Shown: positions 3,655 to 35,098 of the stretch, piece after piece
How the letters are laid out: every line of letters begins with the position of its first letter
How positions within the stretch are numbered: the first letter of the stretch is position 1
Assembly (NCBI GenBank): GCA_905221605.1
Contig: CAJNDS010000044.1
Coordinates: 43,501 to 107,500, forward strand
From: Symbiodinium natans
Lineage: Eukaryota > Sar > Dinophyceae > Suessiales > Symbiodiniaceae
Direction of reading: 5' to 3'
DNA length: 64,000 bases
The notes under the pieces: model-generated
Told to the model about the DNA's origin: nothing
The model's input: only the letters and a program-made list of their open reading frames with translations
Databases searched by the model: none
Translations under genes and position numbers: made by a program

Positions 3655-3661
3655 GACTTTC

Positions 3662-3927
3662 AGCTAACGGTCAACGGGTTGATAGTGCTTTAAAGTCTGA
3701 GCCTAGAGAAAAACCCCTTTGTGTTTCTTTGCTAGCTCGCCCGAGCTTTGGAAAAGGGAAAACTTTCCTTCATTGGCCTTTTGCACTCATTTTCCAGTCT
3801 CTGACACCATTGCTTGCGCATGTTCACCGGTTCAAGTGCCTTGTGAACGTTGAGCATCTGTAAGTTCTTGGAGCTGCCAAATGTTTTGCATCAAGCTTTG
3901 AACACTAGACTCAAGCTTCTGCAATGT
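3662..3927 (+). repeat. Split direct repeat A1 (left end of the YR retrotransposon)
   Basis: These 266 bp match 11442-11707 without a difference that I could find; identity breaks at C/A (3661 versus 11441) and at T/G after GCAATGT. The repeat starts with a hairpin-like stretch: TCAAC-GG-GTTGA at 3671-3682, followed by GCTTTAAAGTC at 3687-3697, which is the reverse complement of GACTTTAAAGC found at the right end of the element (12341-12351). It directly precedes the recombinase frame. Confidence 0.85.
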
Positions 3928-3955
3928 TGCATATGAGGCCAGGATAGAGGCGGTT

Positions 3956-5464
3956 TTGGAGAAAAGTTGCCTTAAGCTTGTGGGGTTCCTGAACTCTTTG
4001 GAGCTTAACGCCAGACCACATGCGTGGCCTGCCGGTCATGATGACCAGTGCATCTATGTCAAGGCCTGCCTCGGCGTGAAGTCGCCATTCACTGTCGAGA
4101 AGCGTGCAAATTCGTTGGTTCATCTCATGCGCTGGATGGTTGAGTACAAAGGGCTTCTTGTGAGCATCACCGAGGATGGGCTCTGGGATTATTTGTCATA
4201 CTTGAAGGAACATGCTGCAGCGGCCTCCAAAGGACAGGCTTCCATATCAGGAATCCGTTTTGCCTTGCATGTTCTGGGAGTGTGTTTCTCCGAGCACGTG
4301 TTGAGTCGTCGATGCATTGGATTCGCCGAACAAATGGAGACCTTGTCACGCGAGTCTTGCCAGGCATCTTCTTTGTTGCTTTCAGAGCTTCTGGCATTGC
4401 ACGGTATGTTGAAAAACAGTGCGCTGGAGCCTTGGGACCGCGCTTCCGTGGCGTTCTTGATCATCTGTGCGTATGCCAGGGCGCGGGCCAGCGACCTTGT
4501 CAGAGTACAAAGGGTGTCGGCCGACACCGCAGATAAATTTGGGTTCCTTGAGATAATGCTCAAAACTCATAAAGGGGCTAGGAACCCTAGGCTTAAGTCC
4601 AAGCTCCTGCCCGTGATTGCTCCGTTGGTTGGGGTCGATGGATCCAACTGGTATCTCGATGTCAAGGCTGCTCTGGAAGCAGAGGGCTTGTCGCTCGATG
4701 GCGACATCAACGGCCCTTTGTTCCGTCCTCCTCGCGACGGTGCGGGAGGAGCTCCAGGTGTGCGTGAGCTTCGCGCTCATGAGGTGACTGCGCTGCTGCA
4801 TTCCTTCCTTGGGCAGCCCGATGCGAATCGCCGGCTGTCTTCACATAGCCTCAAGGCAACTTTGCTTGACTGGACTTCCAAATTTGGCTTGCCTCCTCAG
4901 CAGCAGCATATCCTTGGACGCCACTGTGATGCTGTCAAGGGAAGTGCACCATTGTACTCGAGAGACCTGGTTTATGATGCCACGCGAGCTCTTCAGAGCG
5001 TCATCATGGAGGTGCATCATGCCCGTTTCGTGCCCGATGCGCCGAGGTCCTTGAGGTATCCACAGAGTGTTGCTCAGTCTCATGTTGATGTGATTGAGGT
5101 CAAGGACGAGCCCGTTGGCGAGGCAGTGCCGATTCCCACGGTGGGCAAAGGGCCAGAATCTGCTGAGCATGATGCCAGTCCTGCTTCAAGCTCCGATGTG
5201 GAGTCCTCCTCTAGCAGTTCATCCAGCTCCGACAGCGCTGCACCTGCATCCTGCAAGAAGTTCGCACGCCCGGACTGGCCTGACGAGCTCACGCGTGTGC
5301 ATAAGAAGACTCGTACCATGCATCTGGCTAAATCCTTTACAGGTGGAGGCACTGCAATCTTTGCATGCGGTCGAGCGGAATCTGATGCTTACGAGGCTGG
5401 ATGCGCTTCTGGCCCAGGCAGGCGCTGTGAAGTTTGCGTTCGTCTTGGGGCTGATGCGTCTTGA
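3956..5464 (+). CDS. Tyrosine recombinase of the retrotransposon
   Basis: This is a 503-codon frame for a tyrosine-recombinase-type integrase that would insert the circular DNA copy of the element. The catalytic constellation can be followed: Arg in YARARASDL (residues 173-181, R175 or R177), H297-S-L-K300 in the box II position where most family members have HxxR, H323 in LGRHCD, and the nucleophile Y334 in APLYSRD. An N-terminal helical region (about 40-160) fits the SAM-like core-binding domain. The tail (about 385-500) has a Ser run and a basic stretch. The frame is open upstream to a TGA at 3899-3901 but contains no ATG before the coordinate given, so initiation is at a non-ATG codon, depends on splicing, or the start has been lost. 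It lies 28 bp after repeat A1. Lys for the second Arg also occurs in some eukaryotic YR families and does not by itself imply inactivity. Confidence 0.8.
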   Translation: MEKSCLKLVGFLNSLELNARPHAWPAGHDDQCIYVKACLGVKSPFTVEKRANSLVHLMRWMVEYKGLLVSITEDGLWDYLSYLKEHAAAASKGQASISGIRFALHVLGVCFSEHVLSRRCIGFAEQMETLSRESCQASSLLLSELLALHGMLKNSALEPWDRASVAFLIICAYARARASDLVRVQRVSADTADKFGFLEIMLKTHKGARNPRLKSKLLPVIAPLVGVDGSNWYLDVKAALEAEGLSLDGDINGPLFRPPRDGAGGAPGVRELRAHEVTALLHSFLGQPDANRRLSSHSLKATLLDWTSKFGLPPQQQHILGRHCDAVKGSAPLYSRDLVYDATRALQSVIMEVHHARFVPDAPRSLRYPQSVAQSHVDVIEVKDEPVGEAVPIPTVGKGPESAEHDASPASSSDVESSSSSSSSSDSAAPASCKKFARPDWPDELTRVHKKTRTMHLAKSFTGGGTAIFACGRAESDAYEAGCASGPGRRCEVCVRLGADAS

Positions 5465-6147
5465 CATGGTTTCTCTTCTTAGGGCAAAGCCCTTTATGAC
5501 TTGGTGGTACAGACTTTTGCAAAATCTGTCTGGCCAGCTGGCGGATGCGCTTGCTGCCTATGCCTCGGCAACATGGCCGGCGGATGCGCTCGACAACATG
5601 GCTGTCGGATGCGGTTTCGTCACACAGTGGCACTGCCGCCTATCAGTTGTGTTTGGTGGTTGCACCAGCCGGCGGTTGCGCCGATCGGCCAGATTTTTCT
5701 TTGGAGTGGCGCGGCGGATGCGCTTGCGCTATGCCTCGGCAACATGGCAGGCGGATGCGCCTCTACAACATGGCCATCTGATGTGCTGAGGCCACATGGC
5801 TGGCCTTGCACTCCCTGAGTTGTGTTTGGTGGTTGCACCTGCCGGCGGATGCGCTGAGCTGTCAGACTTTTTCGAGCAGATGTTTTTGAAAGCTTCCGGC
5901 AGCCCCCACATCTCTTCGCCGCTGAAAAAGTTGGGCGTTCTGAAGACTTCATATGTGGGACACTAAGCAATCTGCATGAGATGCTTTTGTGGTTTAGTGG
6001 AACATTTCACCTCAAACTAGATGCTGATGAGGCGTGGTGATCTGATGCCTTGATGTTTGGCCTCACTCTGTCAGTACATGCTTCAGTCCTTTGCTGTCGA
6101 GCTCCAGCTTAGGCCGCCATTTGGGAAGGCTGCGCGTTTGTTCAGCC
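5465..6147 (+). repeat. Degenerate tandem repeats between recombinase and gag
   Basis: From about 5505 to 5880 a unit of roughly 160 bp is repeated imperfectly. Marker pieces are GGCGGATGCGCT (several times), CTATGCCTCGGCAACATGGC (5559 and 5730), and GTTGTGTTTGGTGGTTGCACC (5646 and 5819) followed by CCGGCGG and CAGA(C)TTTTTC. The rest, to 6147, is unique and non-coding. It might carry a promoter or ribosome-recruiting sequence for gag, but nothing in the sequence proves this. Confidence 0.55.
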
Positions 6148-7351
6148 ATGTCGAGTCTTCTGGACAGTGAAGCTCATTTTGAAAAGAGGGCCTCCGAAAT
6201 CGGGATGAGTGGGGCCAGCTTGCAAGCTCTGCAGGCTCATGGGGTTGCGACCATGGGTAACATTGCACATATCATTGGGACTCCGGGCCAGCCCCTTGCT
6301 GACGCCGATGTTGAGGTTTGGATGCGCTTGCATTTGCCCGCTGCGACCCTAGGTGATCAGGCCTCGCTCCGCCGCCTCATCTGGGAGGGGAGGCATTGGC
6401 CACAGCTGAGCTCAAGGAGCAGTTAACCCACCCCGACAGTTCCGCCCAAAAGAAGGTTCCGGAAGCTGAACGCTCCCGGCGGATGGCGCATTTAAAGGCT
6501 TCGTTGCCGGGTCTGGCTTTGGAAGGTCCCCTCGAGCCCTCTTTCAGCCTACTTGATAAAGCAGCTGCCATCGAGAGAGAGAATCAGCTTCGTTTTCTCA
6601 GCCCTGATGTTTGTGTTAGTCGGGCCTTCGAGGTCACGAATGCACGACCCGACAAGAAGGTCCTCGAGCTTGATGATGCCAAAACGCTGTCTGTCTCCAG
6701 CCAGGCTGATGTGCCCGAGAGTCCGCCGTGCTCGGCCCTACAGCTGCAGGAAGCCCTTTTGCGGCGAGGCGTTGCTTTTGCCTTTGCGCAGATTGTATCC
6801 TTCACGTCTTATCAGAAGTATGTCACGCTCCTTTTCCAGCATTTGGCCCGTGACCCGCCCCCTGATTACCAAAGGTGTTCGGTCAGTCAGTTGGCCAGAG
6901 CGGACCGTATGGTGTTTGAGCGTCTCATTGCTGCTGATGTCAAGCCCCGGCGCGATCCATCCGGCGTGTATGCCTTGGACACCAAGCTTTTGGAAGCTCT
7001 TGAAAGCTACCAGGTCAGCATGCTTTTGATGCCTTTGGCGGCTCAGCGTCCTGATCAGCGGGGGCTGAAGCGCCCTGCTGCTTCTGCGTCCTCGGGGCAG
7101 TTCGGGCGTGCACGGCCTGGTTCCAAATGGGCCAAAGGCCGCGGCAGAGGGGCCCCTGCTGGCAAAGGCAAAGGTCGGGTCCATGGGCCGGCCGTACCCA
7201 AGGTGATCAGTGACTTGGGCGGACATGCCAGGACTGACGATGGCAAGGAGCTTTGTTTCAACCACAACTTGGAAGGCTGCAAGAATCCGCATTGTAAGCG
7301 GTTTGCGCCAAGTGCTTCAAGAGCACTCACACGATTAGGCAGTGCAATTGA
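6148..7351 (+). pseudogene. gag-like ORF of the YR retrotransposon, frameshifted
   Basis: A protein of about 400 residues precedes pol. It starts with ATG at 6148 (MSSLLDSEAHFEKR), has a helical N-terminal part, a basic Gly/Arg/Lys-rich stretch (encoded about 7070-7200) and a C-terminal Cys motif, CFNHNLEGCKNPHC, that resembles the start of a CCCH zinc finger as found in nucleic-acid-binding gag proteins. The frame is broken by a tandem duplication of GGGAG (6383-6387 and 6388-6392): after it, the homologous-looking frame continues two bases out. A second shift probably lies near 7300, because the expected His of the zinc finger is missing and a Cys/His-containing frame (tgc at 7304 to TGA at 7349-7351) follows in another phase. 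Pol begins 19 bp later. Confidence 0.6.
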
Positions 7352-7369
7352 GAGCTTGGGGCGTCGGGG

Positions 7370-10300
7370 GTGCCGCTGCCGCGCCCTCCGGCGCCGGGCG
7401 CTGAACCACGTTTTTCCATTGGTGAGGTCGTCTCCTCACGCATTTCTCCGGGCAATGCCGAATCTCTTGCAGCCTCCTTTCTCCAACAGGGGGTCACGGA
7501 AGCCGATGTCTGCGCTTTGGTGCCCTATCTCAAGTCCGAGCGTCCTGCTCGGGGACAAGGCATGCCATCCGAGTTTAGCTTTACAACGGGCGCGTACGTC
7601 CATGGGTCTTTGGTTGGCCTGAGGACCCATGCATCCACTTTTCCAAATGTCACGCGCTGTCTGTGTGACCTAGTCAAGCGCCGAGCCCCAGAAATCGAAT
7701 TCTCTTCGATAGCCCTTTTTAAGGATCTTTGCACCCCTCCTCACCGTGACCTGAATAACAGTTCAGGTTTTCCCTCCTGCCTCATTCCTTGCTCCAGCTT
7801 CGAAGGAGGCGAGCTGTGGATTGAAGATGACGAAGGCTCAGTGGCGTGCCCCGACACCGCTGTTGCCACCAAAGGTCGTCTCCTCAGCCTCACGGGGCCC
7901 ACATTTTTCGACCCACATCTGCTTCATGCGACCGCTCCTTGGGTTGGATCCCGGGTGGTGATTGCGGCCTTTGTCATAGCTCGCTTTGAGCTACTGACGG
8001 CTTCCGACAGGTCAGCCCTGCAAAGCTTAGGCTTTCGCTGCCCAGCCCTTTCTACCGGCGAAAATGCCGGTCCGGCCCCCCCGCGTCCGCTGCGCAGCAA
8101 TTTCCCGGTGGTTTTTGAGATCTTCTCTGGTTCTGCTCGCATCACAACGGCTTTGCGTTCTTTTTGGCCGCACTGTTTCGGCGTGGATTCTAGGCCTCCG
8201 TCCGAAGCTCGCTCTCATACTTTGGTGGCAGACCTCAGTTCGCCAGCCGGGCAGGACTTGCTGTGGCATTGGTTGCGTTGCCCATATCTAGTAGGGTTGT
8301 GGATTGCTCCGCCGTGCGGGACGGCCAGTCTCGCACGTTGCATCCCGGTGTATGATGCTGCCGGTAACATTGTACCGTCGCCGCCTCCCTTGCGCGACTC
8401 GGCCTGCCCCGACGGCCTGCCAGGCCTTGAAGGCCTTCATGCTGTGCGAGTTCGCCAAGCGAATATCTTGTATTCCTTGGTTCAGGAGCTGTGTGCTTTC
8501 GCTCACCAGGCGCAGATCATGGTGGCCGTGGAGAATCCTCGCGGCAGCCTCTTCTGGTCGACTTCATCATGGCGCCGAGCGCAGCCCTACTGTCCCTTTT
8601 GGACTTGCTTCCAGAACTGCGCTTTCAAGGGTCGCAGACCCAAATGGACGGCCATCGCTCACAACCACCCCTCCTTCACCGCCCTCGCCCGTACTTGTCC
8701 TGGTGCCAGTTGCGCTTCGCAACATTTGCCCTGGGGGCTCACCCCGTCCCACGCCTGGTCCACTAGTGAGGAGTGCGCTTATCCGCCTTTTCTTGCTGTC
8801 TGCGTGGCGCGTTGCTTTGCCCAAGCCGTTGAGGTCGCGCCGTCGTCTGAGCCGTCCATTGCGGCCATCCGCGCCCGCACTGGGTTGCAGCCCAAGGCTT
8901 CTTCTTACGCCCCCCTGGTACCGGAACACAAGCACGTTGTTGTCTTGCGCGGTCCCTCCGTTCTGCTTGACGACCTGCCGGTCGAGCCCATGGCCCGCTT
9001 GAAGAAGGAATGGGCGCCTCCGCCTTCTGTTGCCCCCGCCGGGGCCCTGCCCGCAGGCTCACAGCTTCTGCGGTCTACTCCTCTTACGGTTAATATGGGG
9101 TTGCCTGACACTGACCAAGTTCCCACAGGTGCCGCTTTGCAGCCCGAAGTTCCCCCACAAGGTACCACCGAGGTTGCTTGGGGCATTCCCTTTGAACCAC
9201 AAGAGTTTGTGAGAGCTGCAGTGGCCAAGGGGCATCCTCGTACTTTCAGCGCTTTGCTGCCAAGTGTTCTGGAAGAGGCCATTGACTTCAATGCGAGCCA
9301 TACCTTGGCTGAGACTGCAGAGGTCAGGACTGGTTGGTTTAAGCACTGGTTGAATAGGATGGGGGCTTTGAAGGAGGAGGAGGCAGCTCTGAAGGCATCG
9401 ATGCCCCCAGAGCGAGCAAAGGTGCTGGAGGGGAAGAACCTCCTGCTATGGCAGGAAATGTTACGCGCCAGCGGTTATCCGGATCTGGGAGTCGTAGATC
9501 TGATGAAGGAAGGTGTCGATCTTGCAGGCCAGGTGCCGGCTTCTGGGCTTTTTGAACCTTGTTTCAAACCCGCCAAGCTGTCCCCCGCTGGTCTGGCACA
9601 GCAGACTCCCGAAGTTCGCCGGAAGATTCTCGTTGCTGCATCCAAGCCATCTGAGCATGATGCCGTCATATGCCAGAAGACAGCTGAGGAATATGAGAAA
9701 GGCTGGGTTTCTGGTCCGCTGGACCCCAGCTCGTTGCCCTCAGATGCAGTGATCAACAGGCGCTTCGCCATTCTTCAGAAGGATCGGCCCAGAGTAATTG
9801 ACGACTGCAGCGCTTCCCTTTTGAACGATACTGTGCAGAAGACCGAATCTCCCCAGCCTCAGAGTGTGGACCTGATCGCAGCCATGGTTCTAGCAGCACT
9901 CCAGCGTTTGCCAGGCAAGGCCATGGTCGGAAAGTGCCTGGACTTGAAAGCTGCCTACAGACAGGTTCCTGTTTCAGCCGCTGGCCTGATGTTTGCCTTT
10001 GTTGCATACTTCTGCCCTGCAGAGGCCAAATGCGTGGTGAGGCAGATGTATGCGCTTCCGTTTGGTGCCAGCAGGGCTGTGTATGGGTACCTTAGGATAG
10101 CGTATAGCTTGTGGTGGTTAGCCGTTAAGAACCTTAAGCTCATGATGACGCACTTTTTCGACGACTTCGTCAACATCTGTAGATCCGAGGAGCAGGTCCA
10201 CGTGGAAAGAGTCCTGCATGGTTTCTTTGCACTGCTTGGCTGGAAAGTTTCGGAGGACAAGGATCATGGGTTCCAGGAAGAATTTACGGCTCTGGGGATA

Positions 10301-11125
10301 TGGGTTTCCTTCAGCAGATTCCTTCATTCCGAGGTCTTGTTCTTCAACACTCCCAGCCGGATACAGGAAGTTTCAGCCTATTTGAACTCGCTCCTGGAGG
10401 TTAGAACGTCCACCAAGAAGGAACTGGAACGAATCAGGGAACGCATGCTTTTTGCTGGTGGCCAGCTGTTTGGAAGGTTGGGCCGAACGTGTGTTAAAGC
10501 GCTGCAGCAGGCAGAAGCCGACCCTCAGTGTGTGATCACCGACGCCATGGCTTCAGCCATCACCTTGTTCATTGACCTCCTCAGAAATGGCCCGCCTAGG
10601 ATGATCTCCAACCTTTCCGCACAACCCTGCTACATCTTCACAGATGCGGCCTTTGATAGGGCTGGAGGTTCTAGCCGTTGTGGGTTGGGGGGAGTCCTCA
10701 TAGGACCTGATGGGATGCCTCGTAGGTTCTTCTCGGTAGAACTTCACGAGTCCTTCCAGCGAGCCTTAGGCGTTGATGAATCTAGTACTATTATCTTTGA
10801 AGCTGAACTTTGTGCCGTAGTTTTGGCCTATGTCCTCTGGAGAGATGACATTTGTTCGCGACCCATCGTTTGCTACATAGATAATAACGCCACAAGGGAC
10901 GTCCTCATCAGTGGTTCCGCCCGCAACCAGGTAGGTGCCAGGTTGGCTCGGCTTCTCCTTACGGTGGAGACCCTGGCCAAAACCTTCAGTTGGTTCGCAC
11001 GAGTGCCCAGTCCGTCGAACTTGGCCGACGAGCCTTCCAGGACCCTCATGTCCTCCTTTCAATTTGAAGGCGTGGTTTTGGAAGCAGATTCTTGCCAACA
11101 AACCTTGGAGATGATTCTTGCTTGA
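7370..11125 (+). CDS. Pol polyprotein: 2OG-dioxygenase-like, C5-methyltransferase-like, reverse transcriptase, RNase H
   Basis: This is an intact 1251-residue frame; the given start is a GTG, so the true start is uncertain. Four regions can be read. (1) About residues 60-205: H125-R-D127 in TPPHRDLNN, F.GGELWIEDDEG, then H186 and R195 in LLHATAPWVGSR, the HxD...H...R signature of Fe(II)/2-oxoglutarate oxygenases. (2) About 248-440: FEIFSGSAR (249-257), IAPPCG (C316) and VENP (E388), matching motifs I, IV and VI of C5-cytosine methyltransferases. (3) About 770-1010: reverse transcriptase with a FFDDF catalytic core (D931, D932). (4) About 1085-1235: RNase H with FTDAA (D1092), FEAEL (E1144/E1146), YIDNN (D1171) and ADEPS (D1220). 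No protease and no DDE integrase is seen. DIRS elements are known to encode a different, adenine-type methyltransferase-like domain after RNase H; here the position and motifs differ. Confidence 0.8.
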   Translation: MPLPRPPAPGAEPRFSIGEVVSSRISPGNAESLAASFLQQGVTEADVCALVPYLKSERPARGQGMPSEFSFTTGAYVHGSLVGLRTHASTFPNVTRCLCDLVKRRAPEIEFSSIALFKDLCTPPHRDLNNSSGFPSCLIPCSSFEGGELWIEDDEGSVACPDTAVATKGRLLSLTGPTFFDPHLLHATAPWVGSRVVIAAFVIARFELLTASDRSALQSLGFRCPALSTGENAGPAPPRPLRSNFPVVFEIFSGSARITTALRSFWPHCFGVDSRPPSEARSHTLVADLSSPAGQDLLWHWLRCPYLVGLWIAPPCGTASLARCIPVYDAAGNIVPSPPPLRDSACPDGLPGLEGLHAVRVRQANILYSLVQELCAFAHQAQIMVAVENPRGSLFWSTSSWRRAQPYCPFWTCFQNCAFKGRRPKWTAIAHNHPSFTALARTCPGASCASQHLPWGLTPSHAWSTSEECAYPPFLAVCVARCFAQAVEVAPSSEPSIAAIRARTGLQPKASSYAPLVPEHKHVVVLRGPSVLLDDLPVEPMARLKKEWAPPPSVAPAGALPAGSQLLRSTPLTVNMGLPDTDQVPTGAALQPEVPPQGTTEVAWGIPFEPQEFVRAAVAKGHPRTFSALLPSVLEEAIDFNASHTLAETAEVRTGWFKHWLNRMGALKEEEAALKASMPPERAKVLEGKNLLLWQEMLRASGYPDLGVVDLMKEGVDLAGQVPASGLFEPCFKPAKLSPAGLAQQTPEVRRKILVAASKPSEHDAVICQKTAEEYEKGWVSGPLDPSSLPSDAVINRRFAILQKDRPRVIDDCSASLLNDTVQKTESPQPQSVDLIAAMVLAALQRLPGKAMVGKCLDLKAAYRQVPVSAAGLMFAFVAYFCPAEAKCVVRQMYALPFGASRAVYGYLRIAYSLWWLAVKNLKLMMTHFFDDFVNICRSEEQVHVERVLHGFFALLGWKVSEDKDHGFQEEFTALGIWVSFSRFLHSEVLFFNTPSRIQEVSAYLNSLLEVRTSTKKELERIRERMLFAGGQLFGRLGRTCVKALQQAEADPQCVITDAMASAITLFIDLLRNGPPRMISNLSAQPCYIFTDAAFDRAGGSSRCGLGGVLIGPDGMPRRFFSVELHESFQRALGVDESSTIIFEAELCAVVLAYVLWRDDICSRPIVCYIDNNATRDVLISGSARNQVGARLARLLLTVETLAKTFSWFARVPSPSNLADEPSRTLMSSFQFEGVVLEADSCQQTLEMILA

Positions 11126-11177
11126 TGGCGGAGATCCCTTCTTGTTTTGGGCATTAGTTTGGGTTTCGGTTAAGTTG

Positions 11178-11442
11178 GGGATTGGTGCATGCTTCCCAGT
11201 GTTATGTCTTTGCCGCCAGCTGCAAAGGGGCCCGTGTGCCCAGCTTCACAGGTTGCCGCCCAAGGTGTAAGGTGAGGCTTTGTGTGCACCGACTCCCACA
11301 GTCTCCACGTGAGAAAAGAAGAAGTGAGTGCAGTGCTTTTATGCATAGTGATGACATGCTTGGGGATCCTTTTGGGAGAGTCTTATGCACTTCGAGTTTT
11401 GCTGTTTTCCCTTTTCCGGGTTTCTTTGGCTCAAGACTTTAA
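11178..11442 (+). repeat. Split direct repeat B1
   Basis: These 265 bp match 12084-12348 without a visible difference. The copy lies 52 bp downstream of the pol stop and abuts A2 directly. Its last bases read TTTGGCTCAAGACTTTAA; the 11-mer TTTGGCTCAAG is the same as the 3' end of the dinoflagellate spliced leader. Confidence 0.85.
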
Positions 11443-11477
11443 GCTAACGGTCAACGGGTTGATAGTGCTTTAAAGTC
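11435..11477. other. B1/A2 junction: putative recombination site of the circular intermediate
   Basis: In split-repeat elements the internal B1-A2 junction has the sequence created when the two outer ends (B2 and A1) are joined in a circle. Here the junction reads GACTTTAAGC, then TCAAC-GG-GTTGA (11451-11462), then GCTTTAAAGTC (11467-11477). The outer arms are inverted copies of each other apart from one base, and the centre is a perfect 5-bp-arm hairpin, as expected for a tyrosine recombinase recognition site. GACTTT also precedes A1 (3655-3660) and ends B2 (12341-12346), so it is the best candidate for the strand-exchange core. Functional assignment is inference. Confidence 0.55.
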
Positions 11478-11707
11478 TGAGCCTAGAGAAAAACCCCTTT
11501 GTGTTTCTTTGCTAGCTCGCCCGAGCTTTGGAAAAGGGAAAACTTTCCTTCATTGGCCTTTTGCACTCATTTTCCAGTCTCTGACACCATTGCTTGCGCA
11601 TGTTCACCGGTTCAAGTGCCTTGTGAACGTTGAGCATCTGTAAGTTCTTGGAGCTGCCAAATGTTTTGCATCAAGCTTTGAACACTAGACTCAAGCTTCT
11701 GCAATGT
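11442..11707 (+). repeat. Split direct repeat A2
   Basis: This is the second copy of A1 at a constant offset of 7780. It begins at the end of B1 (one base is shared) and ends at GCAATGT, after which the sequence diverges from the left copy. During reverse transcription of such elements A2 and B1 are thought to serve as template for completing the ends. Confidence 0.85.
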
Positions 11708-11789
11708 GTTAAAAATTTCTCCCGCCCGGCCCACCCTGTGTCGGTCGCCTGGCTTCCCTCTTGTGCTCGTCCTGCCGAGTGTCGTGCGT

Positions 11790-12083
11790 AAGCGAATGTC
11801 CTGCGTTCGCTCATGTGCACCAACATGGACGCGCCTGCTGGTTCTTGATGTTGCTCATGCCTGCCAGCATTGGAGCACCTGCTGATTCTTGATGTTGCTC
11901 AAGGCTGCCAGCATTGGAGCGCCTGCCGGCTTGTTCCTTGCGTTCGCTCATGTTTGCGCCAGCATTGGAGCGCCTACCGGCTTGTGCCTTGCGTTCGCTC
12001 ATGTTTGCCAGACACCGAGCTCTGACTGCTAACGATGCAAACTCTTGCCCCATGCTTGAGGGGATGAGCTTGTGCCTCCCAAA
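11790..12083 (+). repeat. A2-B2 spacer with a degenerate minisatellite
   Basis: The 376 bp between A2 and B2 are single-copy in this window. From about 11815 to 12005 there are four degenerate units of about 45-50 bp with the core CAGCATTGGAGC.CCTGC followed by GGCTTG...TTGCTCATG or TTCGCTCATGTTTGC. In described PAT/Ngaro elements A2 and B2 are adjacent, so this spacer is atypical. Confidence 0.6.
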
Positions 12084-12348
12084 GGGATTGGTGCATGCTT
12101 CCCAGTGTTATGTCTTTGCCGCCAGCTGCAAAGGGGCCCGTGTGCCCAGCTTCACAGGTTGCCGCCCAAGGTGTAAGGTGAGGCTTTGTGTGCACCGACT
12201 CCCACAGTCTCCACGTGAGAAAAGAAGAAGTGAGTGCAGTGCTTTTATGCATAGTGATGACATGCTTGGGGATCCTTTTGGGAGAGTCTTATGCACTTCG
12301 AGTTTTGCTGTTTTCCCTTTTCCGGGTTTCTTTGGCTCAAGACTTTAA
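12084..12348 (+). repeat. Split direct repeat B2 (right end of the YR retrotransposon)
   Basis: This is the second copy of B1, offset 906. Identity ends at GACTTTAA; the flank continues AAGCTTC. Together with GACTTT at the left flank this fits insertion at a GACTTT target with no other duplicated bases. Confidence 0.85.
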
Positions 12349-27200: not shown

Positions 27201-28211
27201 CCAACTGGCAGGAGTGGTATGGGGGCGAGGGATGAGCGGGGGTGGGCGGCGGGGTAGGACGCGTCAGGCCTCTGGCCACGGTGGATATTGATAATCGGGT
27301 TTCAAGCTATGCGTGTTGATGGCCCATTGTTCTTTGAAGCCAGCTTGCAGAATCGAGAAGGGGGTTGGGCCGGGAGGTGCCGATTTGGAAAGGAGGGAGG
27401 CAGATGGGACGGGTAGCCTTTCCATCACCACCGCCAGAGCGAACGTGAGGTGGTCTGTTGAGTTTCAAGCTTTTTTTGGCAACATCTCCTCTCTCATTTT
27501 TCTTTCTTTTTCTCTCCCTCTCTCTCTCTCTCTCTTTTTTTTTCTCTCTCTCTCTCTCTCTCTTGCTCCCTCTCTCTGTTCTCTCTCTCTCTCTCGCTCT
27601 CTCTGGTTGGTTGGCTGGTGAGGACCTTGCCCTGCTCGGTGAGGATGCCCCCGAGATCGTGGAGGCGCCCCAAAGAAAAAGGAAAGAAGAAAGGAAAGAG
27701 AAAGGAACGAGAAGCGTGGGGGGAAGGGGGGGAGGTTGTAAACGAAAGGATTCGTGGGGGCATTTTGTCGGAGGCATTCGCCCCACCTTTGCGCACCCGT
27801 TTTGCATTGCGTTATACCAATCGTGAGCTCTTGGTTGCTGTTGCTCTTGTTCTTGTTTTTGTGTCTTGTGTTCTCTCTCTTCACACTCTCTCTCTCTCTC
27901 TCTCCCTCTATCTCCGCAAGCCCGAACTCTTTTGGGGTTTATACTTATCGGACTCTTTCTCTTTCTCTTTCTCTTTCTCTTTCTCTTTCTCTTTCTCTTT
28001 CTCTTTCTCTTTCTCTTTCTCTTTCTCTTTCTCTTTCTCTTTCTCTTTCTCTTGTTACACGTGGACTGGGTCGTCAGCGAGAGAAAGAGTGTTTGTCTTT
28101 TTCTTGTTCGTTTCTTGGGGCTCTCGGGTTCTCGCTTTCCTTTTGTCTTTAGCCGAGGCAGGCGCGGCGCCGGCTTCATTGCCGTCGCCCGTCTTCACGG
28201 ACATGGACTGA
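21279..28211 (+). CDS. AAR2: AAR2-like U5 snRNP assembly factor (multi-exon, 5' end incomplete)
   Basis: AAR2 binds the spliceosomal protein Prp8 during U5 snRNP maturation. Exons read by eye, joined in phase: 21279-21333, 22017-22062, 22159-22214, 22338-22389, 22865-22902, 23153-23215, 23276-23325, 23447 to about 23515, less certain pieces near 24066-24107 and 24260-24300, then 24392-24439, 24513-24571, 24759 to about 24812, 24946-24991, 25103-25138, 25498-25537, 25733-25759, 27623-27664 and 28158-28211 (TGA). Family landmarks in order: SVLCLGCPEG, FGLDYAAWSVGPR, GVKLVPPGLHYLYC, GFFLHLRP, FDRNLGPYPLE, HMDRTVQLEDL, ELQLAYIAFLLGQ, WRALLQLLC, APADLFGDDL and DLALLGEDAPEIVE. All acceptors are AG|G; most donors are GC, the rest GT. 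The initiating exon, an exon between 25138 and 25498, and exact ends around 24 kb are missing. The next gene starts 637 bp downstream on the same strand. Confidence 0.85.
23880..23909 (+). repeat. (TG)n microsatellite in an AAR2 intron
   Basis: About 12 GT dinucleotides follow a CGGG block inside the intron between the eighth exon and the uncertain exons. Confidence 0.9.
25011..25061 (+). repeat. TCTCTTTCG minisatellite in an AAR2 intron
   Basis: Five and a half perfect copies of the 9-mer TCTCTTTCG lie between the exons ending at 24991 and starting at 25103, forming a pyrimidine-rich tract just before the acceptor. Confidence 0.9.
25890..25966 (+). repeat. TTGTATTCCA minisatellite
   Basis: About seven imperfect 10-bp units (TTGTATTCCA and variants) lie inside the 1.86 kb intron between 25759 and 27623. 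Confidence 0.85.
26763..26896 (+). repeat. Dispersed repeat family, short copy, in an AAR2 intron
   Basis: CGCCTCGGC (26763-26771) and CCGAGGCGAATTGAG (from 26779) form an inverted pair, followed at 26861-26896 by TTAGTCTGG...GCGCCGCCCTCAGAAG. The same landmarks in the same order recur at 39450-39814, and the first two at 49493-49893. This copy has lost the sequence between the inverted arms. Confidence 0.6.
27510..28053 (+). repeat. Pyrimidine microsatellites (CT)n and (TTTCTC)n around the last AAR2 exons
   Basis: (CT)-rich blocks occupy about 27510-27606 and 27880-27910; (TTTCTC)n, about 16 units, fills about 27954-28053. They flank the exon at 27623-27664 and lead up to the last acceptor at 28157. 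In both identified genes such tracts sit on the coding strand as pyrimidine runs upstream of acceptors. Confidence 0.9.
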
Positions 28212-31548: not shown

Positions 31549-32110
31549 ATGTTTTCACCTCGTGAACGGACCTCGTGGACTGGGCGCGCCTGTGGGCGCG
31601 GAGGGTCTTCGGGCCCGTCATGCCCCCTAGAAAAGATAGAAGAAGAAGAGAGACAGAGAGGGAGAGAGAGAGAGAGAGAGAGAGGGAGGGGGGGAGGGAG
31701 GGAGAGAGAGAGAAGGGGGGCGGAAGGAAAGTTTCACCAGAGGGCTTTTCAGCGTCCCTTCAAGCCCAGCAGAAGGACAGAGAGAGAGAGAGAGAGCCAG
31801 AATCTATGTGTGTCTGTGTGTGTGAGGTGCGATTGTTTTCATCACCTTTCTTTCTTCATCGCGTGTTTCCTGGACCCCCTTTGTGCACTCCTCAGCTCGG
31901 GAGGTGATCACTCCCCCGGAGCTCCTTTCGAAGTTTCACAGCAGCCGTGGCAGGAGAGGGGGAAAGTCTTAAACTTCTCTTTTCTCAAAACGCACTCTTC
32001 AACGATTATCTTAAAACGTTTTGTGTATGTGTTTTTGTTTGTTTTTTTCTCTCTTCCCCTCTCTCCCCCTCTCTCCCCCTCTCTCCCCCTCTCTCCCTCC
32101 CTCTCTCTCC

Positions 32111-32152
<42 letters not shown>

Positions 32153-35098
32153 TTAAGGAACCTTTCATTCTTTTTGAGAGTCTCGCTCTCACTCTCGCTC
32201 TCGCTCTCGCTCTGGCTCTCTCTCTCTCTCTCTCCCTCTCTCTCTCTCTCTTTCCTGAGAGGATCACGGGCTCCACGGCCACCTTCGGAGCGCCCTTCTA
32301 CGGGGACGTGGTGATGGGCCGCCTGGTGCGCGTCTGCAACTGTTGGAATGTTGGAGTTGCTTGGGAGAGAGAACCGCAACAAAACAAAGAAGCGAGCGAG
32401 GGAGGGAACGCAAAGCATGCACCCCCCAAACGCAAATGGGGTCACAGAAAGCTCTGGATGCTCTGCTCATAGCCGGAGTTTGCATTCGTCTCAGCAAAAA
32501 GTGTTTGCCGTGTGGCCCGTCGCCAGCAGGTGTACGGCCTCTCCAAACACAATGACGTCTATTGCAACGAGGACGATCGGGGGTTTCTTGTTGCGAGGCA
32601 CGAGCGCTTAGGTATATCACATATATATATACATATATACATATCATCTGCATCTTTGATGGGACCTCTTTCCCACACAGGATGACTACGATGTTCCGAG
32701 CCCCGAGACGTTTCAGACGGAAGGCAGCAGCTACCGCAAGGCGGAGAGTCGAGTTGTTTGAAGTCCGAAGGAGGCTTCAGAAGGAGGCAACTTCTGCTTT
32801 TGAATGGAATTTAGCGGCCAAACCCTGACGATTGAGGTGAAGCTGTTGAACATAATAATGGTGCGCCGGGGCAAGTGCTCCTTCACTACGAAGGCCAATG
32901 CTGGAGAGTGATGTGTTGCACAATGTGTTGCACAATCGTCAGTCTTTGCTTTCCCTAGGGGCATCGGGCTTCGGCGTGTTTTTTTTTGTTGGGGGCCTGT
33001 GGGTTTGGGGAATGTCGGCTGTTTGGATGTGGGACGTGCTTTGAGGCCTCAAGATGATGTGTATTGTGAAAGGCCTAAGGACGGGCATGGCCGCCCTAGC
33101 CGGCGCAGAAGCCTCTTAAGCCCAACTCTCTCAAATTGACTCTCAAATTGACTCTCTATTTTTTTGTCTGCTCCACACTCTCAGAGAAAAAGTCTCGAGG
33201 TGAAGGTGGCACAGGACAAGGGCGCCCACGCAGTGATCATCGTGGATCGCGAGGAGAGCGTTTTGGAGAGCCAAGAGCTAAAAGTCAAACAAAGGGGAGC
33301 AAAAGACGGCGGGAATCCTTCGGTTCTCAGCTCCTCTCACTTTCTCTCACTTTCTCTCACTTTCTCTCACTTTCTCTCACTTTCTCTCACTTTCTCGCAC
33401 TTTCTCGAACAGACCAAAACAACATGCTGAAAAAGGACTCGACCCTGACGGCCCAGAGCCTGTCGAATATCATCGTGGCCGACGACGGCTACGGCAGCAG
33501 TGTATACATTCCCTCGGCGGCTGGCCGAGCTTGGATTTTCACTGGCGTCGCACACGGGCGTCGCGAACGCCAAATCTCTCTGCACAGTGCAAGAATGTTG
33601 TGTGTGTGTGTGTATGTGTTTGTGTTGCTTTTCGTGTATTTCTTTTGTCTTGTGTGTCTGATACCTTGTGGTTTTCTTAAGTTGTTTTTTTTGGTGAGGT
33701 CCTGATCTCCAAAGAGGACGGCCAGGAGCTCATCAGCGCCGTCCAGTCCACGGAGGTCGAGAACCGGAGAGAGGGGGAGAACATTTGAGAGAGCAGAGAA
33801 CACATTGAAACGCCTCTAACTTCTCTCTTCCCCCGATTCTCGACCCTTGAGATTCATATCTGAACCCCCTGCATTCCTCTGATCGCTCAGTGAAGCAGGT
33901 GAAGTCGCCTGCCTGCGTGTTGTTACAAAAGCAGTCCTTCCGACAACCCAAGTAAGGCCTTAGCGCAAGAACGTGAAGAAAACAAGCGTTGGAACTTTCA
34001 AAACTAGACCTTTTTGCGTCAAACTCAGATATTGTTGCATACGTGCGATGGGGTTCTTATTCCTGTATTGAGATGCGGTGTTTCTTTTGATCGCTCAGTC
34101 GGCAAAGCGGGGATAAGTCAATGGTGCTAGCTTGAGTTTCCTCATGCCAATTCTTTTGCATAGGCAAGCTTTTCTTTCTTTAGTACTCTCAAAAGAAGCA
34201 AGAAGTCCTCCAGTAGAAAATCCTCTATTTCACCCTCTTGCTACGCAAGTTTTTGTGAAAAGTGCTTCCGCCACGATTGCAGCCTCCCGGCACAACAGGA
34301 ATGAACATAATCAAGCGCCCCCAGACACCACAAGAGCAAGAGCAACATGCCTCTGCCGCGACAACAGCCAATGACCATCTCGGAATCATCTCGACATCGG
34401 GATGTCGCCAGGTCGTGATCGAGTTGGCGTGGAACTTGCCAACCGATCATGTGGTCACCATGGACATGTGGATGAGCTCGGGCTCCAGCCAGTCCATGCA
34501 ATTCCTCAAGGACTCATTCGCGAGAGAGTTCAACAGGAAGAGAGAGAGAGGGAGAGAGAGAGAGAGAGAGAGAGCGGGAGAACAAGAGGCAACGATAGAG
34601 AACACGGTCCTTTTGCTCGCGCCACTGCCCGGTGTGTAGGAGTTTGCCCCGAAGCGGCGGGTCCTGAACGAGGTCATGATCTTCAACCCTCATTACGTGC
34701 GGACCCCCAAACGTGTGCTCTGTTGCGTGGCAATGAGACACTGGAGTCTCCAACGGAGTCTGCAACTTGAGAGCGAATCTCGAGCGACACTTGGAACACC
34801 GATTTGTATGAAACGAATCCGATAGAGACCCCTCTTGAGTCAAGCGCGGGCCGTACCAGAACAAGCGATCCGAGTCCTGCACAGAGTTGGCCAAAGAGCT
34901 GAGTCAGCAAAACGAGACCGAGTAAGACAGCGGGCTGGTTTAGGGTTTTTAAGGTTTCGGGTGTTTAGGGTTTTGGGGTTTACGATTCGTTAGGTGTAGA
35001 GTGTCTATTTAGGGAGTGTTAAGGTGGTTTGGGGCTTTAGGGTTTGTTGGGAGCAGCTTACGGTTTTTTAAATGTTATAAGGTATTGTGTTGTTTTTT

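Follow-up and report, generated by a model that had tools for sequence, protein, structure and literature searches.

Architecture of the element and its gag–pol junction

Within the window, by which we mean the whole 64,000-nucleotide stretch of Symbiodinium natans DNA analysed, positions 3655–12348 hold a tyrosine-recombinase retrotransposon with split repeats in the order A–coding–B–A–B (Table 1), a repeat layout that it has in common with the SymbioDIRS elements (PMC5890265). Both repeat pairs are 100% identical, so the insertion is probably recent. The recombinase ORF is without ~300 N-terminal residues found in the open frame of a related locus, L031, and is thus damaged in this copy. Tyrosine recombinases carry the signature motifs R, H-x-x-K/R, H and Y; the corresponding R (ARASD), HSLK, LGRH and Y (SRD) align in the window and in loci L031, L033 and L034. 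The name rests on these motifs, since Pfam gave no match for the ORF. Split repeats and aligned motifs together bear out the element type given in a first-pass annotation of this DNA. Degenerate ~70-nt repeats lie between the recombinase and gag ORFs (5628–5871), as they do in L031. Elsewhere in the window, a 290-aa ORF on the minus strand (27307–28179) has only a weak match, to Atrophin-1 (0.0045), and for a 307-aa ORF on the plus strand (31549–32472) no match was found.

Table 1 Features of the retrotransposon in window coordinates, with the evidence for each
Feature	Position	Strand	Basis
Repeat A, left copy (left element end)	3655..3927	+	273 nt, 100% identical to 11435–11707
Tyrosine recombinase ORF	3956..5464	+	Motif alignment; 97.8% identical to residues 303–804 of the L031 open frame
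gag region	6104..7348	+	Extent estimated from that of L002 (gag frame of 415 aa)
UGA between gag and pol, presumed readthrough site	7349..7351	+	One in-frame TGA in 11/11 assessable families
pol ORF, 1,257 aa, intact	7352..11125	+	Open reading frame
TET/JBP-like 2OG-Fe(II) oxygenase domain, residues 20–232	7427..8065	+	Alignment and Pfam scans
HxDxxN motif: H125, D127, N130	7742..7759	+	Invariant in 34/34 rows
Distal H186 and presumed 2OG-binding R195	7925..7954	+	H in 34/34, R in 33/34 rows
C5-methyltransferase-like domain, residues 233–500	8066..8869	+	Alignments and profile comparison
PPC motif, presumed catalytic C316	8309..8317	+	C in 38/38 rows
ENP motif, E388	8531..8539	+	E and P in 38/38, N in 37/38 rows
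Reverse transcriptase; FFDDF at residue 929	9800..10303	+	RVT_1 1e-5, 25.8 bits (below cut-off of 29.6)
RNase H region: TDAA 1091, EAEL 1144, DNN 1171, ADEPS 1219	10640..11038	+	Motif positions
Repeat B, first copy	11178..11442	+	265 nt, 100% identical to 12084–12348
Repeat A, second copy	11435..11707	+	273 nt, 100% identical to left copy
Repeat B, second copy (right element end)	12084..12348	+	265 nt, 100% identical to first copy

The gag region of the window copy is broken across frames, with ORFs at 6091–6426 and 6396–7622, the last piece being in the pol frame. It ends in a CCHC zinc knuckle (a pattern read by eye) directly 5′ of the UGA. The pol frame had been counted from a GTG (7370–11125, 1,251 aa); this GTG is a mechanical start, because the frame is already open from 7352, right after the TGA at 7349–7351. 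As the first-pass annotation had proposed, reverse transcriptase (RT) and RNase H follow downstream in the same frame, with their catalytic motifs and an RVT_1 match that stays below the Pfam cut-off; RT_RNaseH matches a relative, L038, at 2.2e-4. Comparison of the pol sequence with solved structures gave nothing significant.

A single stop, always TGA, lies between an open upstream frame and pol in all 11 families in which the junction could be assessed (L002, L016, L029, L038–L043, L045 and L046; L035, L036, L037 and L044 were left out of the count as their frame runs off the locus). The upstream frame ends at the locus edge in L016, L038, L039 and L045, and it measures only 157 aa in L046 and only 17 aa in the window copy, where gag is frameshifted. 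The codon after UGA is CTA in L016, L040, L041 and L045, CTG in L038 and CTT in L039, placing CU directly after the stop in 6 of the 11 families; it is CGG in L029, CGT in L042, GAG in L002 and AAG in L043 and L046. A CUA codon right after UGA is known to make the stop leaky, and the gag–pol junction looks like a site of programmed readthrough. Readthrough would place the oxygenase and the methylase within Gag-Pol and hence, we infer, in the particle.

Two predicted DNA-modifying domains ahead of the reverse transcriptase

The N-terminal part of Pol had been read as a Fe(II)/2OG oxygenase followed by a C5-cytosine methyltransferase, and the one-frame motif layout behind that reading was recovered. 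H125 (in HRD), GGELW (residue 146) and H186 (in HATAP) lie where they had been placed, D127 and R195 agree by alignment, and the methylase motifs SGSAR (253), PPCG (314, with C316) and ENP (388) follow. The residues named for a conservation survey are retained in every collected row, apart from one oxygenase row with G in place of R195 (Table 1); the 34 oxygenase and 38 methylase rows counted here are all those collected, near-copies included, with the window sequence present twice in each set. Such conservation indicates that the motifs are not chance. It extends to divergent sequences. In the 19-row oxygenase alignment A4, drawn from 13 of 27 distinct own-genome domains and five of six database rows of alignment A2, the 18 chosen relatives are 23–50% identical to the window domain, and H125, D127, N130, H186 and R195 are invariant in all 19 rows. 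The 19 chosen rows of the methylase alignment A5 (11 of 26 distinct own-genome domains and seven of 11 database rows of A3) are 22–53% identical to the window, with C316 and E388 invariant throughout.

Tet_JBP (PF12851) was the sole recurrent Pfam family among the oxygenase rows, with matches in eight of them (E up to 10) out of 19, at E-values of 8e-7 (L037), 3.2e-6 (L035), 1.1e-4 (L040), 0.0023 (L044) and 0.031 (L039). The window domain alone matched it at E 0.062, over profile positions 75–161 of 164, and in one Pfam scan six of nine oxygenase domains had no match. We call the domain TET/JBP-like because the best score, 28.9 bits, does not reach the curated cut-off of 34.9. Searched with PF12851 up to E 0.01, the S. 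natans assembly (759 Mb, 2,543 contigs) gave three places only, L035–L037. All three match the oxygenase profile A2, built without them, at 1.8e-25 to 4.4e-33 in a small database of locus ORFs, so the window family is assigned by homology as a divergent TET/JBP-like oxygenase, with oxidation of a 5-methyl pyrimidine as its putative activity. The TET/JBP half of the earlier suggestion is thereby retained. AlkB, its other half, and further 2OG families were rejected, having given no match at the thresholds used.

Further searches added little on the oxygenase. PF20515 found no place in the genome, nor did its control, which makes that search uninformative; solved structures, compared by sequence, gave nothing significant, NCBIfam nothing relevant, and viral contigs no confirmed relative. 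A protein search with A4 returned 18 proteins, one of them named Symbiodinium sp. CCMP2592; Pfam labels were absent from all of them. In human TET2, the position equivalent to N130 is an Asn that contacts cytosine. In the fungal enzyme CcTET, the position five after the first His is Gly331, which has been tied to 6mA activity (PMC12730594); Asn, not Gly, lies five residues after H125, a mild argument against a CcTET type.

The methylase assignment was refined in a similar way: the C5 type stands, now with phage-type relatives, and the expected Pfam family does not. PF00145 matched none of the 19 methylase rows at E up to 10, for which reason we call the domain C5-methyltransferase-like and reject a Dnmt3 identity. 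By contrast with PF00145, phrog_757, labelled 'DNA methyltransferase', matches 10 of the 19 rows (best 2.8e-6) and phrog_363 matches five; the window domain itself matches neither. A profile comparison of A5 with A6, an alignment of four phrog_757-type proteins from the same genome, gave a probability of 98.6% (E 1.4e-15), with C316 on the last Cys of the A6 PCC and ENP on ENP; the control, the oxygenase alignment against A6, gave 0.2%. The A6 member L051 has a match (3e-16) in Bacillus phage BM15, to a protein whose annotation reads 'cytosine-C5 specific DNA methylase'. Against the PDB at E up to 1, six of eight A6 matches are C5 methylases, the best of them (0.033) not significant alone. Canonical C5 methylases have QxRxR as motif VIII. 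At that position the methylase family has C..GG.R.K.T, close to the C.YG.RY.K.T of the phage-type family.

Direct comparisons of the methylase domain yielded less. By sequence, solved structures gave nothing significant. Searching phage records by tblastn with the retroelement methylases gave weak matches, in 3 and 23 records and with 0.06 as the best E, and no relative was confirmed in viral, bacterial or archaeal contigs. In the S. natans genome, phrog_757 has 66 places, of which six coincide with PF00145 places; at least five overlap listed methylase places and at least eight have a listed oxygenase place no more than 700 bp away, the overlaps of phrog_757 and PF00145 being computed against 13 hand-picked listed oxygenase or methylase places. 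L048–L052 and the other phrog_757 places represent small DNA methylases of the phage type; copies are numerous, most of them in short frames. On homology, the domain belongs with the phage-type C5 methylases rather than with Dnmt3; the C5-type assignment is well supported, and methylase activity is predicted.

Recurrence, probable selection and possible exchange of the domains

The genome contains at least 39 pol matches, eight of which (window included) are 98–100% identical and open at full length. They fall into subfamily A (at least 16 rows, 95–100% identical to the window pol, eight full-length), subfamily B (at least 13 rows, 39% identical, L016–L028) and subfamily C (at least 10 rows, 37–38% identical: L029, L030 and eight more). 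Pairwise dN/dS for oxygenase, methylase and the rest of pol was 0.27, 0.14 and 0.06 in A (8 copies), 0.37, 1.21 and 0.23 in B (13 copies) and 0.04, 0.15 and 0.22 in C (4 copies), the value of 1.21 resting on very few changes (pS 0.0024). All the others, eight of nine, lie well below 1, consistent with purifying selection.

Pairing of the two domains is recurrent and not a one-off. Single-protein searches scored at least 151 oxygenase and at least 143 methylase places in the genome. On the same strand and within 1,500 bp, at least 41 pairs run oxygenase–methylase and at least 14 methylase–oxygenase, 49 of these 55 with the same frame length (150 of the 151 oxygenase places entered this tabulation). 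These counts are too low, because a profile search finds a methylase in five of six ORFs fetched as listed for oxygenase only (L039–L044); that of L039 is the most divergent, and L044 has only a weak trace (E 1e-4). Among ORFs listed for methylase only, the profile check found an oxygenase in L045 and none in L046.

Relatives in the protein database show further combinations. Of 14 Pol relatives (P0002–P0015), five have both domains (P0002, P0003 and P0006–P0008). P0004 and P0005 have the oxygenase only by BLAST, with a weak methylase trace by profile that lies N-terminally, before the oxygenase. The other seven (P0009–P0015) have the methylase only, some being perhaps truncated. P0015, with RT first and the methylase at the C terminus, represents a third arrangement. 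The oxygenase also occurs in very long ORFs: that of L044 (G000:C1918) is Copia-type (RVT_2 3.8e-13), and a stretch downstream of L035 (C1769), L047, matches RVT_2 at 2.5e-6, below the cut-off. L037 (C2511) likewise has its oxygenase inside a very long ORF. The parts of L035 and L037 that were covered showed no clear methylase.

We compared domain trees across 13 elements that carry both domains, L039 having a very long RT branch. Methylase and RT trees agree (Mantel r 0.83, p 0.0001), whereas oxygenase and RT trees agree poorly (r 0.28, p 0.04); oxygenase against methylase gave r 0.36 (p 0.015). These values suggest that the methylase largely travels with RT, while the oxygenase is exchanged more or evolves differently.

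Possible roles and known systems

The reading that we put forward, with chances we judge to be about even, is a packaged two-enzyme DNA-base-modification module, delivered via Gag-Pol, that would act on the DNA of the element as it is made. Translation of the element would yield Gag and, now and then, a Gag-Pol fusion when the single UGA is read through; Pol would enter the particle together with the RNA, its RT and RNase H preceded by a TET/JBP-type oxygenase and a C5-cytosine methylase. During cDNA synthesis the methylase would mark cytosines of the element DNA, and the oxygenase would oxidise a 5-methyl pyrimidine, which could be thymine or 5mC, the latter made by the methylase or by the host. 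A copy modified in this way might resemble host DNA, or be spared by host nucleases and silencing, until its insertion by the tyrosine recombinase. The near-invariance of catalytic residues in both domain families supports this reading, as do Tet_JBP as the sole recurrent Pfam family, the profile match of the methylase to phage-type enzymes, the adjacency of the domains in both orders, the mostly low dN/dS values and the single UGA at the gag–pol junction; SymbioDIRS-Dnmt3 and the phages with both enzyme classes are precedents. It is weakened by the occurrence of methylase and oxygenase apart, by Tet_JBP scores under the cut-off, by solved structures giving no significant sequence match to either domain, by the poor agreement of oxygenase and RT trees and by the methylase dN/dS of 1.21 in subfamily B. 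The original idea that the element writes a mark and then oxidises it is compatible with these findings as a hypothesis; an obligatory write-then-oxidise pathway is not established, because the domains also occur apart.

A JBP-like oxygenase could instead act independently of the methylase, oxidising thymine to 5-hydroxymethyluracil (5-hmU) in element or nearby host DNA and so tapping or feeding an abundant base. The Asn at N130 in 34 of 34 rows, the counterpart of the cytosine-contacting residue of TET2, speaks against this, while the Copia-type ORFs, which hold the oxygenase without a clear methylase, speak for it. The link to 5-hmU, known in dinoflagellate DNA since the 1970s, is attractive because the base replaces 12–68% of thymine in the dinoflagellates assayed and is enriched in most repeats of Breviolum, with a possible main role in repeat activity suggested by the authors; the top enrichment, however, is in Maverick elements, and DIRS-like ones go unnamed in the repeat section (PMC11071213). 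TET family enzymes in general likely generate 5-hmU, according to a review (PMC6723414). We regard thymine as the target only tentatively, as possible and on the whole improbable. The broader proposal, that retrotransposon-borne TET/JBP-like oxygenases, with their 151 or more places, are a source of dinoflagellate 5-hmU kept at least partly by selfish elements while the fused methylase writes 5mC in parallel, seems to us decidedly doubtful. The available text of the 5-hmU mapping paper contains neither 'oxygenase' nor 'JBP' and, by the words searched, names no enzyme (PMC11071213); the domains described here are candidates, open to testing, for the enzymes that oxidise dinoflagellate DNA.

Anti-silencing is a further explanation, in which the oxygenase would remove or alter host 5mC on integrated copies and the methylase would have a separate task. 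It has a precedent in the TET-bearing DNA transposons of fungi, for which this role has been proposed (PMC12730594), and CG methylation covers most of the Symbiodinium genome (PMC5890265). Yet most of the families examined have a methylase of their own in the element as well, and enzymes carried by Pol would be expected to encounter particles and cDNA, not DNA that is already integrated, which leaves anti-silencing unlikely in our estimation. If the targets were RNA, with both domains editing methyl marks on element RNA, the orchid Gypsy elements that carry an AlkB-type m6A RNA demethylase would provide a parallel (PMC9289625). The oxygenase matches Tet_JBP, not AlkB, and the methylase resembles phage DNA methylases, so an RNA role appears highly improbable. 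The activity of both domains is predicted from sequence, and they might be non-catalytic packaging or binding modules; given the (near-)invariant catalytic residues in the 34 oxygenase and 38 methylase rows, we attach very little weight to that view. On the modification-module reading, the pairing may allow the element both to set marks on its own DNA and to alter them.

The closest known system is SymbioDIRS-Dnmt3 (de Mendoza et al. 2018), whose retrotransposon DNMTs were shown to perform de novo CG methylation (PMC5890265). Both are dinoflagellate DIRS-like elements with a methyltransferase inside Pol, a separate tyrosine recombinase ORF and variable domain order; the SymbioDIRS methylase is Dnmt3, with genes counted by PF00145 (PMC5890265), whereas the window methylase is of the phage type and does not match PF00145. 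Elements of the window type were therefore probably scored there as lacking a DNMT, and the available text contains none of the words 'oxygenase', 'TET', 'hydroxymethyl' or 'readthrough' (PMC5890265). DIRS elements with a Dam-like methylase likewise combine a methylase with a tyrosine-recombinase retrotransposon, but their enzyme methylates adenine and has no structural relation to the cytosine DNMTs (PMC5890265).

On the oxygenase side, the orchid Gypsy elements share a 2OG oxygenase within a retrotransposon; unlike that of the window element, it is an m6A RNA demethylase of the AlkB class, encoded by an additional ORF of an LTR element (PMC9289625). Among fungi, mobile elements with a TET/JBP-type oxygenase are DNA transposons and Helitrons, whereas the carrier here is a retrotransposon, and the 2025 survey, as far as its available text goes, found no retrotransposon with TET/JBP (Kojima 2025, PMC12730594). 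We likewise found none with a TET/JBP-type oxygenase in the open-licence literature searched. Phage hypermodification systems bring together the same two enzyme classes, C5 methylase and TET/JBP, but their genes also work with glycosyltransferases and involve no retroelement (PMC12730594). Already known, then, were cytosine methylases in retrotransposons, TET in DNA transposons, and the two together in phages.
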